64,000 nt of DNA from Cyanobacteria bacterium SIG28 (GTDB taxonomy: Bacteria; Cyanobacteriota; Vampirovibrionia; Gastranaerophilales; Gastranaerophilaceae). Location of the stretch: NCBI GenBank assembly GCA_015152525.1, contig SUTU01000001.1, forward strand, positions 1 to 64,000, given 5' to 3'. Position numbers and translations under genes: made by a program. The notes beneath the pieces were generated by a model. That model was given only the letters and a program-made list of their open reading frames with translations. It ran no database searches and was not told where the DNA came from. Shown here piece after piece: positions 7,483 through 13,000 of the stretch; position 1 is the stretch's first letter, and every line of letters begins with the position of its first letter.

Positions 7483-7646
7483 TCTTTTCCGCCTTTTCCT
7501 TAGGGGTAAAGGGGGGAACAAACCCTTTACACACAACTTCCACGTTGTTTATTGTCTAATATAAAACGCAATGTGTCAATAAAAATTAAACATTTGTAAC
7601 ATTTAGAGATTTATGATAGTATATTACTGTTGAAAATCAAATATAT

Positions 7647-7728
7647 GTCGTAGTGGCGGAATCGGTATACGCGCACGTTTGAGGGGCGTGTGGGGAAACC
7701 CGTGCGGGTTCAAGTCCCGCCTACGACA
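7647..7728 (+). tRNA. tRNA-Leu (anticodon GAG)
   Basis: Class II tRNA. The acceptor stem GTCGTAG/CTACGAC is fully paired, with discriminator A. The anticodon arm CACGT-TTGAGGG-GCGTG presents GAG, reading CUU/CUC. A long variable arm (TGGGGAAACCCG) and the T-arm CGGGTTCAAGTCCCG are present. CCA is not encoded here. The last 18 nt are repeated at 7902-7919. Confidence 0.95.
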
Positions 7729-7729
7729 A

Positions 7730-7809: not shown

Positions 7810-7897
7810 GACCTGTGAGCAGAGTGCGAAGGACTTTTGCGAAAAGAACAAAGTTCTTTGAAGCAAAATCCGTAGGCACGTTTAACGCGAACAGGTC
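7810..7897. other. Long imperfect hairpin, possible structured RNA or mobile-element remnant
   Basis: The outer arms GACCTGT (7810-7816) and ACAGGTC (7891-7897) pair perfectly. Further in, GTGC/GCAC, GGACTTTTGC/GCAAAATCC and AAGAAC/GTTCTT pair around an AAA loop at 7850-7852. The two halves are clearly related to each other. The region is not translated. The intergenic stretch 7483-8039 thus contains the tRNA, its terminator, this hairpin, the tRNA 3' copy, a REP copy and a short tandem repeat. Confidence 0.6.
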
Positions 7898-7901
7898 AAG
7901 A

Positions 7902-7919
7902 CAAGTCCCGCCTACGACA
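7902..7919 (+). repeat. Duplicated tRNA-Leu 3' end (att-like)
   Basis: An exact 18-bp copy of the tRNA-Leu 3' terminus (CAAGTCCCGCCTACGACA, compare 7711-7728), here followed by CCA. Direct repeats of a tRNA 3' end are what integrase-mediated insertion leaves behind. Only about 170 bp separate the copies and no integrase is present, so it would be a remnant. Confidence 0.7.
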
Positions 7920-7931
7920 CCATTTTTAATC

Positions 7932-7954
7932 GGTGCAATAAATTGCACCCTACA
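7932..7954 (+). repeat. REP palindrome, copy 1
   Basis: GGTGCAATAAATTGCACC (8-bp arms) followed by CTACA. One of four copies surrounding the RAYT gene. Confidence 0.8.
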
Positions 7955-7995
7955 AGCTTTTTGACACAATTTTATAATGTTGTGCAAGTATGCCC

Positions 7996-8023
7996 AACCG
8001 ACAAACCGACAAACCGACAAACC
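7996..8023 (+). repeat. Short tandem repeat AACCGACA
   Basis: About 3.5 exact copies of the octamer AACCGACA, ending a few bases before the ribosome-binding site of the next gene. It lies in the 5' untranslated region, where copy-number change could alter expression. Confidence 0.7.
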
Positions 8024-8039
8024 AGAAAGGAAAGTTTAT

Positions 8040-8462
8040 ATGAAAAAAGTTTTTATAGTAATTGTGGCATTAATCTTTAGTTTAACATTATTTAGTGTTG
8101 TAAAAGCAGAGATGACCTCATCTCAATTTGTACAACTTCATAATAAATTCTTAAATTCATTAAATACATGTACTCCTGTAAAAGTTTATATTCCTGGAGA
8201 AGATTGTTATGAGATAGGCTTTACAGGTCAAAAAGTATGTGATAATGGTTACACAAGAGAAGTTATCGGCAAAGAAGGTAACACTTGTAAGGTGATCGAT
8301 AATAATAGAAAATGTTATTTTCCTTTAAGTATTACTTCGAAACTATCAAATGGCGGGAAAAAAATTACAAACTCTATTGAGTCAGGAAATATAGATATTA
8401 GTTCTTCAGACCCAAGTATTATTTGGGCAGAACAAATGTATAATAAGTATTGTAGCTATTAA
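8040..8462 (+). CDS. Small secreted cysteine-containing protein
   Basis: 140 aa starting MKKVFIVIVALIFSLTLFSVV with a typical signal peptide (cleavage after VKA, about residue 24). The mature part has six cysteines (in TCTPV, DCYE, VCDNG, TCKV, KCYF and near the C-terminus), suggesting disulphides after export. The start follows AGAAAGGAAAG; an in-frame ATG at 7977 would read through the tandem repeat and is unlikely. No family recognised. It sits between REP copies and may be part of the accessory patch. Confidence 0.82.
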   Translation: MKKVFIVIVALIFSLTLFSVVKAEMTSSQFVQLHNKFLNSLNTCTPVKVYIPGEDCYEIGFTGQKVCDNGYTREVIGKEGNTCKVIDNNRKCYFPLSITSKLSNGGKKITNSIESGNIDISSSDPSIIWAEQMYNKYCSY

Positions 8463-8576
8463 TTATACTCCAATCTTAACAGCATTCTCATATTGTAGTA
8501 TTCCTGTGTAGACTGTTTCATAATATAAACCATGCGTTGAAAAATATTGTTAGGCAACGTTTTTTGTGGTATAGCC

Positions 8577-8599
8577 TGTAGGGTGCAATTTATTGCACC
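8577..8599 (-). repeat. REP palindrome, copy 2
   Basis: TGTAGGGTGCAATTTATTGCACC, the inverted orientation relative to copy 1. It ends 5 bp before the RAYT stop codon. Confidence 0.85.
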
Positions 8600-8603
8600 A
8601 AAA

Positions 8604-9143
8604 TTATTCACACACCATTGAATTTATCTGATGTTTATCTTCAAAATTACACCAATCAATATTATAATAACCACTTTGTACAAACTTTTTAAAAGATGAA
8701 TATTCCCAATCTTTTGGTGCAATGTTGTAATGTTTCATTGAATTGTAATGGATATAATCAATATGTTTATGTAAATCTTCCTCATTTCTAATTATATGGT
8801 CATAATATCTTCTTTGCCAAATACCTTTTTCACCACGTTTTATTGAAGATTCTGATAAATTTTTACATACAAAACTATTATTAATGTTTGCTGAAAAATA
8901 ATACTTAATTGATCTTATAATGCTTGGAATATCACTAGGGTTTTCCGTAACTAATATCAAATGACAATGTTCTTTTAAAATTGATATTGCAATTATTTCA
9001 AAATTAAACTTTGATATTGCTTGTTTAAAACTATCTTTTAATAACTGAACATTAGATAACAAAACTTCTCTACGATTGTATGTTACAAAAGTAATAAACA
9101 CTGGATTATTAGAACTATTGAAATATCTTCTATAATTGCTCAT
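8604..9143 (-). CDS. REP-associated tyrosine transposase (RAYT, IS200-like Y1 family)
   Basis: 179 aa. Single-strand DNA nuclease/strand transferase of the HUH superfamily. The HUH motif is EHCHLIL; the Y1 catalytic region and the family signature RRYYDHIIRNEEDLHKHIDY followed by IHYNSMKH are intact, as is the early FVTYNRREVL. The ATG at 9143 (MSNYRRYFNSS) is chosen; the frame extends to a GTG at 9182, but that codon lies inside the REP palindrome. The gene is flanked by one REP copy on each side in inverted orientation (8577-8599 and 9166-9188), as expected of a domesticated transposase acting on its cognate REPs. It appears intact. Confidence 0.92.
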   Translation of the reverse strand: MSNYRRYFNSSNNPVFITFVTYNRREVLLSNVQLLKDSFKQAISKFNFEIIAISILKEHCHLILVTENPSDIPSIIRSIKYYFSANINNSFVCKNLSESSIKRGEKGIWQRRYYDHIIRNEEDLHKHIDYIHYNSMKHYNIAPKDWEYSSFKKFVQSGYYNIDWCNFEDKHQINSMVCE

Positions 9144-9165
9144 ATAATTTATTATATCATAATTT

Positions 9166-9188
9166 GGTGCAATAAATTGCACCCTACA
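9166..9188 (+). repeat. REP palindrome, copy 3
   Basis: GGTGCAATAAATTGCACCCTACA, about 22 bp upstream of the chosen RAYT start and inverted relative to copy 2. Confidence 0.85.
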
Positions 9189-9217
9189 TACTACGCAAAT
9201 TCAATTATAAAAATTTA

Positions 9218-9718
9218 TTAAGATGCTTGCATCATTATAGCTCTTATCATTACAAAAACGTAAATTATTATAAAAATTGCAATAATTATCCAACGATACG
9301 TATATATAAATTTGAATATATGCAAAATAGACCAAAATATTGAACCAAATATTTTATCAAAAATATATTCATTTTTCCCTTTGGGTAACAATCCCTCATG
9401 CCAAGCATAATAACCAGCTTGATTAATAAAATGCTGTATATTTTTATTATTTATCCAAGAATATTTATTTTTAATAAATTCTTTAAAATCTATTTTTTTA
9501 TATTCAGAATTTTTATATGCCTTTTCATATTCATCATATAATATATTACTTATTTCTTTTCTTACACTCTCTATATAATTTACAATTTCAGTCTGTTCTG
9601 TTTCCTTATAATCTTTTAGTAAAAACTGCGCTTTTTCTATGAGAGGAGTACCCAATTCAGGCCCCCACTCTAAATCTTTTTCTAATAATTTATTATATAA
9701 TTCTGCGTCTATATCCAT
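9218..9718 (-). CDS. Small membrane protein of unknown function
   Basis: 166 aa starting MDIDAELYNKLLEKD. The first 120 residues are acidic and helical; one or two membrane segments follow at the C-terminus (SIFWSILHIFKFIYTY, then WIIIAIFIIIYVFVMI), a tail-anchored layout. An upstream extension to 9793 is open but the chosen ATG lies exactly 6 nt after an extended -10 box (TGTTATAAT), which argues for a leaderless start here. It sits between REP copies. No family recognised. Confidence 0.72.
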   Translation of the reverse strand: MDIDAELYNKLLEKDLEWGPELGTPLIEKAQFLLKDYKETEQTEIVNYIESVRKEISNILYDEYEKAYKNSEYKKIDFKEFIKNKYSWINNKNIQHFINQAGYYAWHEGLLPKGKNEYIFDKIFGSIFWSILHIFKFIYTYRWIIIAIFIIIYVFVMIRAIMMQAS

Positions 9719-9724
9719 ACTCAG

Positions 9725-9733
9725 ATTATAACA
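9725..9733 (-). promoter_or_regulatory. Extended -10 box, leaderless
   Basis: On the minus strand TG-T-TATAAT ends 6 nt before the ATG at 9718. There is no Shine-Dalgarno sequence between them and no clear -35. Confidence 0.5.
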
Positions 9734-9824
9734 TAAATTAAACCTATTATGGCAGAGTTGGAAGTCAGGCAATGCCAGACAAAAATTAAGCACACTTCTC
9801 TAATACAATTTTCATATTGTAGCC

Positions 9825-9847
9825 TGTAGGGTGCAATTTATTGCACC
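9825..9847 (-). repeat. REP palindrome, copy 4
   Basis: TGTAGGGTGCAATTTATTGCACC, same orientation as copy 2. The preceding 20 bp (CATATTGTAGCC) also resemble sequence near 8490. The rest of 9719-10031 shows only the promoter at 9995-10023. Confidence 0.8.
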
Positions 9848-9994
9848 AAATTTTCATTCTTAATACAATTTTCATATTATAATACACCTGAGCCGATAGG
9901 TCTTGTTTGGCTATTGACATTGAACATAACAAAAGTCTGTAACATATTAATTCAATACTCACAGACGCAAGCTACTAAAATTATAAAAAACTCA

Positions 9995-10031: not shown

Positions 10032-13000
10032 ATGCTAAGATTAAATAAATATTTGCTTATATTAATAGGGTTCTATGTATTTTGGATAGGAGTTCTGCCA
10101 TTTGTATTAACAAATTCGCTAAATTTGTTATGTAAAAATTTATCACACAATTCCCAGTATGAACTCCAAATTCAAAAACCTAAAATTTATTTATCACCTA
10201 TTCCAAATTTAGTTTTTAAAGCTGATAAATTGGTTGTCAAAACAAAAAACAATTCAGCCAACCTCGATTTAGATAATATAAAATTGAATCTGAGAATCTT
10301 ACCGTTAATATCAGGAAATTTTCATTTTAATACCATAAGTATATCTTCTATAAATTCCCAATTAAGTATAAAAAATAAAATAGAATTTGATAAAGATTTT
10401 TTTAGCAATTTAGCTAAAAATAACATCATTATTAATTCCGTTAACATACAAGATTTTAATTTTAAATTTAACGGAACAAACGTTAAAGAGTCTGTAGATT
10501 ATGCCGGTAAAAATTTTATATTTGAGAACAAAAATCGTCATACAAAATTAACTCTAAAAAGCTGTTTGCAAGCTGCACAAAAGAAAACAAACATTAATGC
10601 AAACTTATATTTACCTAAAAATAACGATATAAATAAAACTGTATTTGAAATAGATGCTTCAAACATAGATATATCTTCATTAAAAGAGCCTTTCAAACAT
10701 TATTTACCGCAAAATATCAAAAATTTGAGTGGTATAATAAACATTTTTGCTAATAAAGGTGAATTAGTTACAGAATTCCGTAACTGTAAAGTTTTAATGA
10801 AAGAGCCTAGTGAATCAATAATATTTCCAAGTTTAATGCGAATGAAATCCATTTTTAGTATCAATAGCCAAACTATATTTTTTAAACACATAGAACTGGA
10901 TTCACAAAATATTCATATAACAATGGATGGAAAAATAACAGATTATTTAAATTCCACATTGCCAATTTTAGATTTTAATATCAGAATCAATAAATCAAGA
11001 ATAGAAGACATTATAAAAATTTTTCCTGCATTTAAGATAGAAGAAATCGATTTTTATAAACTAAAAAAATATGGATTTTACGGGAATATTTTAGCAAATT
11101 TATCAATAAAAGGTCGGTTACCGGAACCTGAAGTTTTTGGTGATGTTTTTATTAATGACGGTGTTTTAATCAAACGAATACCTAATTCATCAGCCGGCGC
11201 AACAATTAAATTATCTTTTAAAGGAAAAAGTTTTCTTTTTGATGTTAATGTTCCGACAGGCGGTATTGAAAAAGTTTGGGTTAAGGGGACTCAACAATTG
11301 TACAGTGTTAAGTTTGCAGATTTTATTGTAAGAAGCACTTCTAATGTTGATTTGAATATAATGCAAAGTGTCGTTAATCCTCTCCACGAAATCCTTAATT
11401 TCATTGTTGGTCCTTTACCGATACTTAATCTTACCGGCAAAGGCTCTATTGATATTAATGTTAAGGGAAACCGTAAAAATTCTCATATATGGGGTTGGTT
11501 AAAACTAAAAAATAATAATACGCATTTTAAACAAATGTCAGATCTAATATTGTCAGGTGGCAACATTGAACTTATCTTTAACGATAATAATGTGTCTGTT
11601 AAAACAATTAACACTTCTGTTAATAATAAAGCAATAAGTATTTCCGGCAATAGCAGTTTATCAGGGGATTTTTCTTTTGATATTAAGTCAGAAAATCAAC
11701 CGCTGGCAAAAATTTATAATTCGATAAGAAATTCAACTTTGGTTACTGATATAAATAAAATGTTACCAAAGTTAGATAAAATAGAAGGTTCTATTGATAT
11801 AGACTTATCTATGAGCGGGATGATAAATGATTACAATAAAATTAAATTGTATGAAAATTTATTTCTAAAAGGAATTATCGCCCTAAAAAACAATAGTATT
11901 TGGATAAACAATGCTCAAATAAATGCCATAAATGGCGACGTTAATTTAAACAACAAGGCTGTTAATACAGAAATTACAGCTGAAATCGGTAACTCACCAA
12001 TTAATATTGATGTTAAATCTAAAAATGATTTTGTTGATATTGAATTTAATATTCCTAAGTTAAATCCAAATTTGTTATTAGAAAATAAAAGAATTGCACC
12101 AAAAACATACTTACCTTTAGTAGAGGTTGATGGTAAATATAAAGGTAATGTGAATAAGATTGATTACGAAGGATTAAAATTAAATGTAAAAATATTGGAA
12201 TCTCTTCCAGAAAGTATTTTGAAACTTTCTCAAGGGTTGATTGCTTTGAATAATAACAAATTAACTCTCAAAAAAATAAAGGGGTATATAAGCAATCCAC
12301 AAAATATTTTATATGCAGATTTATCAATAGTTGATATTTTTTCAAGAGAAACTCAAACAAGTGGTATTATAAATTTAAAAATACCTCAACTATCAATATT
12401 AAATGAAATTATAGATAGTCGTATATTTCCTGAAAAAATTGAAAATACTTTAAAAAACTTTGCCTTTGAAGAAGGTGATTTAGATTTAACTTGGAAAGTT
12501 TTCAACAATAATGTTAATGCCCAAACTGATTTATCCGGTATTGTTTTAAAATATAAGCCTCTTGAATTACCACTTAATGTTATAAACGGTAACTTAGTAA
12601 TAAAAAATAACACCTTAAAACTTGATAAAATAAATGTTTTGGCTGATAACATGCCGCTTTTGGTTGATGGTGATATAAAAAATGTATTTGATAACAAGCA
12701 ATTTAATTTGTATATAAATTCTAAGCCTCAACAAGAATTTATTGATAAATATATTAATAAAAATCAGGTTTATCCTATTAAAATCAAAGGTGATATTGTT
12801 TATTGGGCAAGAATAAAAGGTATAGCTAATAATTTTGATTTAAAATCTGATATAACAATGAGTAAAAATTCCAGCTTTTATCATTTTGGTGCAACTGTTG
12901 GCGATATAGAAAATTCCATAGCTCTGTACTTAGATACCAAAATAACTAATGGGAATAACTTTAAAATCAGAGATTTTTCATATGATAAGTTGGTTGATTC

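Follow-up and report, generated by a model that had tools for sequence, protein, structure and literature searches.

Introduction

The REP palindromes of bacterial genomes and the REP-associated tyrosine transposases (RAYTs) have for some time been treated as a pair, and it is already published that inverted REPs bound RAYT genes, that the two co-evolve, that RAYTs occur in about 25% of species, and that there are REPs without RAYTs (PMC2817692, PMC3733652, PMC6006769, PMC8266576). The published range of REPs comprises stems of 6–9 bp and loops of 2–3 bp, within which perfect short-loop palindromes fall, and those carrying GTAG are reported from eight phyla, including the Cyanobacteria (PMC3733652). 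An earlier, sequence-only reading of the DNA treated here held the arrangement to be known mainly from gammaproteobacteria, which is true of the first papers but no longer of a literature with GTAG REPs in Cyanobacteria and RAYTs in a quarter of species.

Among the described systems, that of E. coli (the TnpA_REP REPtron, group 2 / subclass 2.2) is represented by the structure 4er8, in which TnpA_REP is bound to a REP hairpin; its REPs number in the hundreds, and their bulge has been published as needed. The REPtrons of Stenotrophomonas maltophilia and Pseudomonas (group 3 / subclass 2.5) have short perfect palindromic REPs with GTAG (in S. maltophilia an 8-bp stem and a 3-nt loop), IS200/IS605 insertion sequences have a Y1 transposase and terminal hairpins, and in neighbouring Cyanobacteria GTAG-tagged REPs are described as the GTAG-12, GTAG-15 and GTAG-16 repeats (PMC3733652). 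Among the matches listed by a literature search for RAYTs or REPs in Gastranaerophilales or Melainabacteria there was no paper that treats this system.

In the window, by which we mean the whole stretch of 64,000 nucleotides that was analysed, there is a region which is very probably a REPtron, that is, a single-copy RAYT between two inverted GTAG-tagged hairpins of its own, with two further local copies and about a dozen dispersed ones.

Results

The features of the region, in their order along the window, are as follows.

7646..7729, plus strand: tRNA-Leu(GAG), also the neighbour in three relatives; an 18-bp part of its 3′ end is repeated at 7902–7919
7932..7953, minus strand: REP1, GTAG-tagged hairpin, outer copy, 12 bp past the copy of the tRNA-Leu 3′ end
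8040..8462, plus strand: small gene of 140 aa, located between REP1 and REP2, without a family match; by eye, its N-terminus has a signal-like stretch
8578..8599, plus strand: REP2, GTAG-tagged hairpin that borders the RAYT unit downstream
8604..9143, minus strand: RAYT of 179 aa, with the HUH residues H59/H61 at 8961–8969 and Y130 at 8754–8756
9166..9187, minus strand: REP3, GTAG-tagged hairpin that borders the RAYT unit upstream
9218..9718, minus strand: small gene of 166 aa, located between REP3 and REP4, without a family match; by eye, its C-terminus has a hydrophobic stretch
9826..9847, plus strand: REP4, GTAG-tagged hairpin, outer copy

That a RAYT stands here with four palindromes, two flanking it in inverted orientation with CTACA and two nearby, had been claimed from the letters, and the observation is confirmed: GGTGCAATAAATTGCACC or its complement is found in four exact copies (at 7932, 8582, 9166 and 9830), and a search of both strands with up to three mismatches gives eight matches, which are the same four sites seen from either strand, where 100 shuffles gave 0.09 on average. 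CTACA after or TGTAG before every copy makes the tagged element GTAGGGTGCAATTTATTGCACC which, read from GTAG to hairpin, consists of an unpaired GTAG, directly followed in all four copies by a perfect 8-bp stem, with a TT centre; in an energy model its single strand folds as tag plus hairpin, with seven of the eight base pairs formed and a four-base loop, and none of 200 shuffles equals this fold. The order along the plus strand is minus, plus, RAYT, minus, plus, and the gene with the inverted REP2 and REP3, whose tags point outward, forms a RAYT unit of 610 bp (8578–9187), outside which both small genes lie; two inverted REPs with GTAG heads likewise bound the gene in the seven cognate relatives. 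The window's only neighbouring GTAG-outward pair encloses the RAYT and is thus no REPIN (a small mobile unit of two closely spaced inverted REPs, taken here as a short GTAG-outward pair without a gene), while short GTAG-outward pairs are present in genome G061. CT, the published cutting site, stands 0–1 nt before GTAG in REP1, REP2 and REP4. Around REP4 there are, besides, near-exact direct repeats of 21 bp at 9801–9821 and 9861–9881 (TAATACAATTTTCATATTGTA / ...ATTATA), with a weaker third copy at 8477–8497, and an Rfam search of the window gave tRNA only.

The RAYT reads from the ATG at 9143 without internal stop; a 192-aa ORF has a GTG start that falls inside REP3 and is improbable as the start of the gene. 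The protein scores 44.9 bits with Pfam Y1_Tnp (cut-off 23) and 121 bits with NCBIfam REP_Tyr_transpos (cut-off 80), and 4er8 is both its best PDB sequence match (E 6.5e-20) and the best fold match of its predicted model (E 3.6e-9), a model of mean pLDDT 68 whose C-terminal third is poorly predicted. In the alignment with 4er8, the H59-C60-H61 of the window protein falls on the HUH and its Y130 on Y115, the catalytic tyrosine of E. coli TnpA_REP (PMC8266576); H59, H61 and Y130 are invariant in the RAYT alignment A2. Family model, sequence match and predicted fold all identify the gene as a RAYT. W109, Q110 and R119 align in turn with W94, Q95 and R104, residues that contact GTAG or are conserved with that contact (PMC6006769). 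A Glu right before the stop is the C-terminal end of 49 of the 59 full-length RAYTs and, by analogy with the E. coli tail residues G160 and E161, which touch GTAG (PMC8266576), would play the same contact part. The family signature had been called intact, which was slightly too strong: for the motif published after the tyrosine, NP(L/V)(R/K)xG (PMC2817692), the window RAYT reads NSMKHY; NPMKHY is found in L202 of the same clade and NPVKHG in other clades.

In comparison with the described systems, the locus has in common with the E. coli REPtron the HUH-Y1 fold, the aligned HUH and tyrosine, the W, Q and R of the GTAG contact and the C-terminal tail, but differs from it in a Cys as the middle residue of the HUH, in copies that number only 2–17, and in a REP that lacks the bulge, its 8-bp palindrome being perfect and its AT centre short. 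In that anatomy the hairpin resembles the REPs of group 3, although the best solved match of the protein is the E. coli group-2 enzyme, a weak distinction given that no group-3 structure is solved; GTAG-15 differs from it in its large loops, a comparison that rests on the text description of that repeat (PMC3733652). An E. coli-like enzyme paired with perfect palindromes, the protein being placed here by its nearest structure, is a variant within the range, because a majority, not all, of the REPs of subclass 2.2 are said to be bulged.

The inheritance of enzyme and hairpin was followed in RAYT loci of the source genome and its relatives (53, one of them without a tblastn match) and of genomes with the exact 22-mer (30). 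An outward-facing tagged hairpin stands within 110 bp of 45 of the 59 full-length RAYTs in the tree, on both sides in 27, and the detector, so defined, found none at the remaining 14; in 20 control loci there was one GTAG-hairpin in 78,097 bp. The window RAYT groups with seven relatives, 63–84% identical, in a supported clade (96/86), every member of which has GTAGGGTGCAAT hairpins, whose centres are mainly ATTTAT or ATTTTT, with single copies ATTCAT or decayed; in the seven relatives, hairpins of this family have been kept at either side of the gene. The next sister lineage has hairpins of the type GTAGCGTGCATTTTAATGCACG, in which both sides of the stem are changed, and those of two sister RAYTs are GTAGGGTAGACTTTAGTCTACC and GTAGGTCAGGCATTGCCTGAC. 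Other RAYT lineages have other hairpins and therefore the hairpin follows the enzyme: several RAYT lineages are represented in the one genome G024, each accompanied by the hairpin proper to it, the RAYT tree requires 18 changes for the 16 stem types, where 200 shuffles require at least 29 (mean 32.5), and the Mantel r is 0.56, a value that none of 2000 permutations reached. Hairpin type thus follows RAYT lineage, not genome.

This tracking bears directly on the notion that the palindromes are only transcription terminators or other hairpins of gene expression, to which the RAYT is near by accident. REP4 does score as terminator-like and REP2 lies between convergent genes, yet REP1, REP2 and REP3 are not scored as terminators, and the unpaired GTAG is common to all four copies and to the hairpins of the sister lineages, which together with the lineage-bound stems makes such a role on its own very unlikely.

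In genomes that have the cognate RAYT, two sister REP families are commoner even when the copies flanking the gene are left out of the count (p 0.009 and 0.006 in a one-sided rank test inside the genus). The window family shows a weaker effect, with a mean of 4.25 copies where the cognate RAYT is present (8 genomes) and of 1.85 in 33 genomes of the genus (p 0.027); seven of the 8 had been found via the 22-mer itself. In L055, L056, L150, L155 and L284, which belong to one clade, and in L270, the RAYT reading frame itself contains a REP hairpin, which encodes, for example, VGQVCPT; REPs inside RAYT genes that leave the frame unbroken have been published for subclass 2.4.

The source genome (G000) measures 1.89 Mb in 26 contigs, and the genome-wide count that the sequence-only reading proposed was carried out on it: 25 sites fit GGTGCAATNNATTGCACC at up to two mismatches against none for the reversed control, and 17 tagged copies, nine of them exact, fit GTAGGGTGCANNNNNNTGCACC, so that the palindrome is not confined to the locus. 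Outside the window, all 13 tagged copies fall outside the called ORFs (of at least 80 aa) of their loci; REPs being defined as dispersed, extragenic and usually in more than 100 copies, these are dispersed and outside ORFs, but 17 only. A search of three relatives with the joined proteins of flanking genes gave, for L025, orthologues of the gene to the right of the REP (glgC-like by eye) that have no REP beside them; as the DNA immediately before them fails to align, this does not amount to an empty site. Six of the dispersed REPs (L021, L022, L023, L024, L028) have a common 3′ stretch, GTTCTTTCTTCTCAAA, 15–20 nt past the hairpin, and two of the six have nearly 100 bp in common, running into other palindromes in a mosaic-like manner.

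Of the 57 genomes searched, 21 have at least one tagged copy and 27 a RAYT match. It had been proposed that the palindrome should not be equally common where this RAYT is lacking, and the exact 22-mer, centred on ATTTAT, was indeed found in the source genome, with its cognate RAYT, and in none of the other 56; the separation is not clean, however, for looser variants, which reach 11 copies in G016, where there is no RAYT match at 89% completeness, and 10 in G006, likewise without a cognate RAYT. The eight genomes with a cognate RAYT have 17, 5, 3, 7, 2, 8, 3 and 5 copies, flanking ones included; in G079 these are only the pair that flanks the RAYT, and in G078 and G081 all are local.

The same unit is found in the assemblies ‘Cyanobacteria bacterium’ SIG32 and SIG26, in ‘Candidatus Gastranaerophilales’ bins and in one yak-colon bin, by which the AT-rich source genome would belong to the Melainabacteria, order Gastranaerophilales. 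Beyond these, among the matches listed (at least 100 stretches), the exact 22-mer, for which the chance expectation in 257 Gb is 0.03, also appears in bins of Campylobacterota, Alphaproteobacteria, Patescibacteria and Tannerellaceae, and of the 32 genomes reached in this way, 24 have a RAYT match at E 1e-6 and eight have none. In the Campylobacteraceae bin G069 it stands 48 bp from L268, a RAYT of a far clade with internal stops, and the AU test rejects a single clade for the eight RAYTs to which this hairpin is nearest (p 7e-5); either the hairpin is old and has been kept, or it has arisen twice. Contamination of bins may account for single cases such as that of Tannerellaceae, where there is one copy. 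In a Patescibacteria bin, six tagged REPs lie within 2.3 kb without a RAYT match (L157, G058:C140 19140–21431).

The surroundings of the unit were compared in three relatives that keep it by the same tRNA-Leu, where it aligns at 82–89% with the window. In L200 the order is dut, tRNA-Leu, a 98-aa gene and REP2-RAYT-REP3, after which the tRNA 3′ end recurs together with a decayed REP1; L202 has tRNA-Leu, REP1 about 10 bp on, a 180-aa gene, REP2-RAYT-REP3 and a flgC-like gene (by eye); and in L181 the tRNA 3′ end recurs, likewise together with a decayed REP1, between tRNA-Leu and an 83-aa gene, which REP2-RAYT-REP3 follows. The small genes of the window have no tblastn match at these loci. Since the unit aligns across relatives and the small genes do not, the RAYT is stable beside tRNA-Leu, and it is the pocket between them that turns over. 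The gene at 10032, matched in 34 of 57 genomes, has upstream of it in 20 relatives neither dut, tRNA-Leu, RAYT nor the small genes, and therefore synteny through it is uninformative on insertion.

This stability weighs on the possibility that the whole REP-RAYT-REP unit hops as a small IS200-like insertion sequence. Its borders are inverted, it is found beside dut, flgC or tRNA-Gln in different genomes (the last two by eye), and one RAYT lineage is present twice in G020, both times with the same REPs; against this, the NCBIfam IS200/IS605 model gives 37.6 bits, below its cut-off of 55, inverted GTAG-tagged REPs with dispersed solo copies set the locus apart from IS200/IS605, each full-length RAYT in the source genome is of another lineage, and the three relatives have the unit at one and the same tRNA. 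We consider such hopping unlikely.

It had also been suggested that the small secreted and membrane genes moved with the REPs, in which case the outer REP pairs (7932/8599 and 9166/9847) would bound cassettes. From tRNA-Leu or REP1 to REP2 there is a different small gene in each of four genomes, and a block of 541 bp with a small LprI-family gene (L021 1308–1848 in G000, L286 1325–1865 in G077) is 97% identical between the two, the dut region being at about 72%, and in G000 stops 3 bp short of a REP tag. The membrane gene (9218..9718), however, is in none of 56 relatives and has no match in the viral contigs searched, the secreted gene (8040..8462) is in one of the 56 by a weak match (G022, 29% over 73 aa) and has none in the phages searched, and in G077 neither the pocket gene nor the block, which has another context there, carries this REP on both sides. 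The joint movement of genes and REPs is thus not upheld, and cassettes of this kind must be considered very unlikely; a shared cassette was likewise rejected in the comparison of 7932–8599 with 9166–9847, where only the REP ends align well. By its identity, the 541-bp block looks like a recent transfer.

We likewise regard it as very unlikely that RAYT and REPs keep open a pocket of gene exchange beside tRNA-Leu, with REP1 and REP2 as the borders between which small genes are replaced, different in each species (140 aa in the window, 180 aa in G078, 83 aa in G067). The 3′ end of tRNA-Leu recurs as an exact 18-bp repeat (7711–7728 and 7902–7919, at a distance of 191 bp), and similar copies are present in L200 and L181 but absent from L202; the repeat looks like the scar of an insertion at the tRNA end, and such insertion could explain the turnover of the pocket without movement driven by REPs. 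Elsewhere, GAACAGGTCAAGA or a near variant, with more around it, is dispersed (window about 7842–7905, L029, L181), near tRNA-Leu and, in other places, near a REP, and is apparently another small repeat family.

Discussion

The reading of the locus as a RAYT with its cognate REPs has held up, and the REPtron has its basis in what was found here: the protein family with its match to 4er8, the catalytic residues by alignment, the anatomy of the flanking hairpins, their dispersal, and the inheritance of enzyme and hairpin together. If the enzymes of E. coli, Stenotrophomonas and Marinomonas are taken as guides, the RAYT would bind the REP as folded single-stranded DNA, through the GTAG tag and the stem-loop, Tyr130 would cut near it, and the covalent intermediate would be joined elsewhere, in such a way that REPs would be copied or moved at a low rate, the RAYT itself having probably been passed on for the most part vertically, near tRNA-Leu.

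The locus is very probably a REPtron of the ordinary kind from a lineage new to such elements, the Gastranaerophilales, where this known type has hardly been described; its unusual points are the low number of REP copies (2 to 17) and the exact 22-mer beside a RAYT of a far clade in Campylobacterota.

In summary, the locus and its relatives add a dense sample of RAYT-REP pairs from outside the proteobacteria, in which one genus, its neighbours and a few remote genomes hold 45 RAYTs with a nearby REP and 16 stem types. Within one clade, the same 22 letters or a near variant have been kept while the enzyme drifted to 63% identity, and the letters recur by a RAYT of a far clade, which makes the reading of the palindrome by the enzyme testable by swapping pairs; the relatives offer, to this end, many natural pairs of enzyme and hairpin for tests of recognition.
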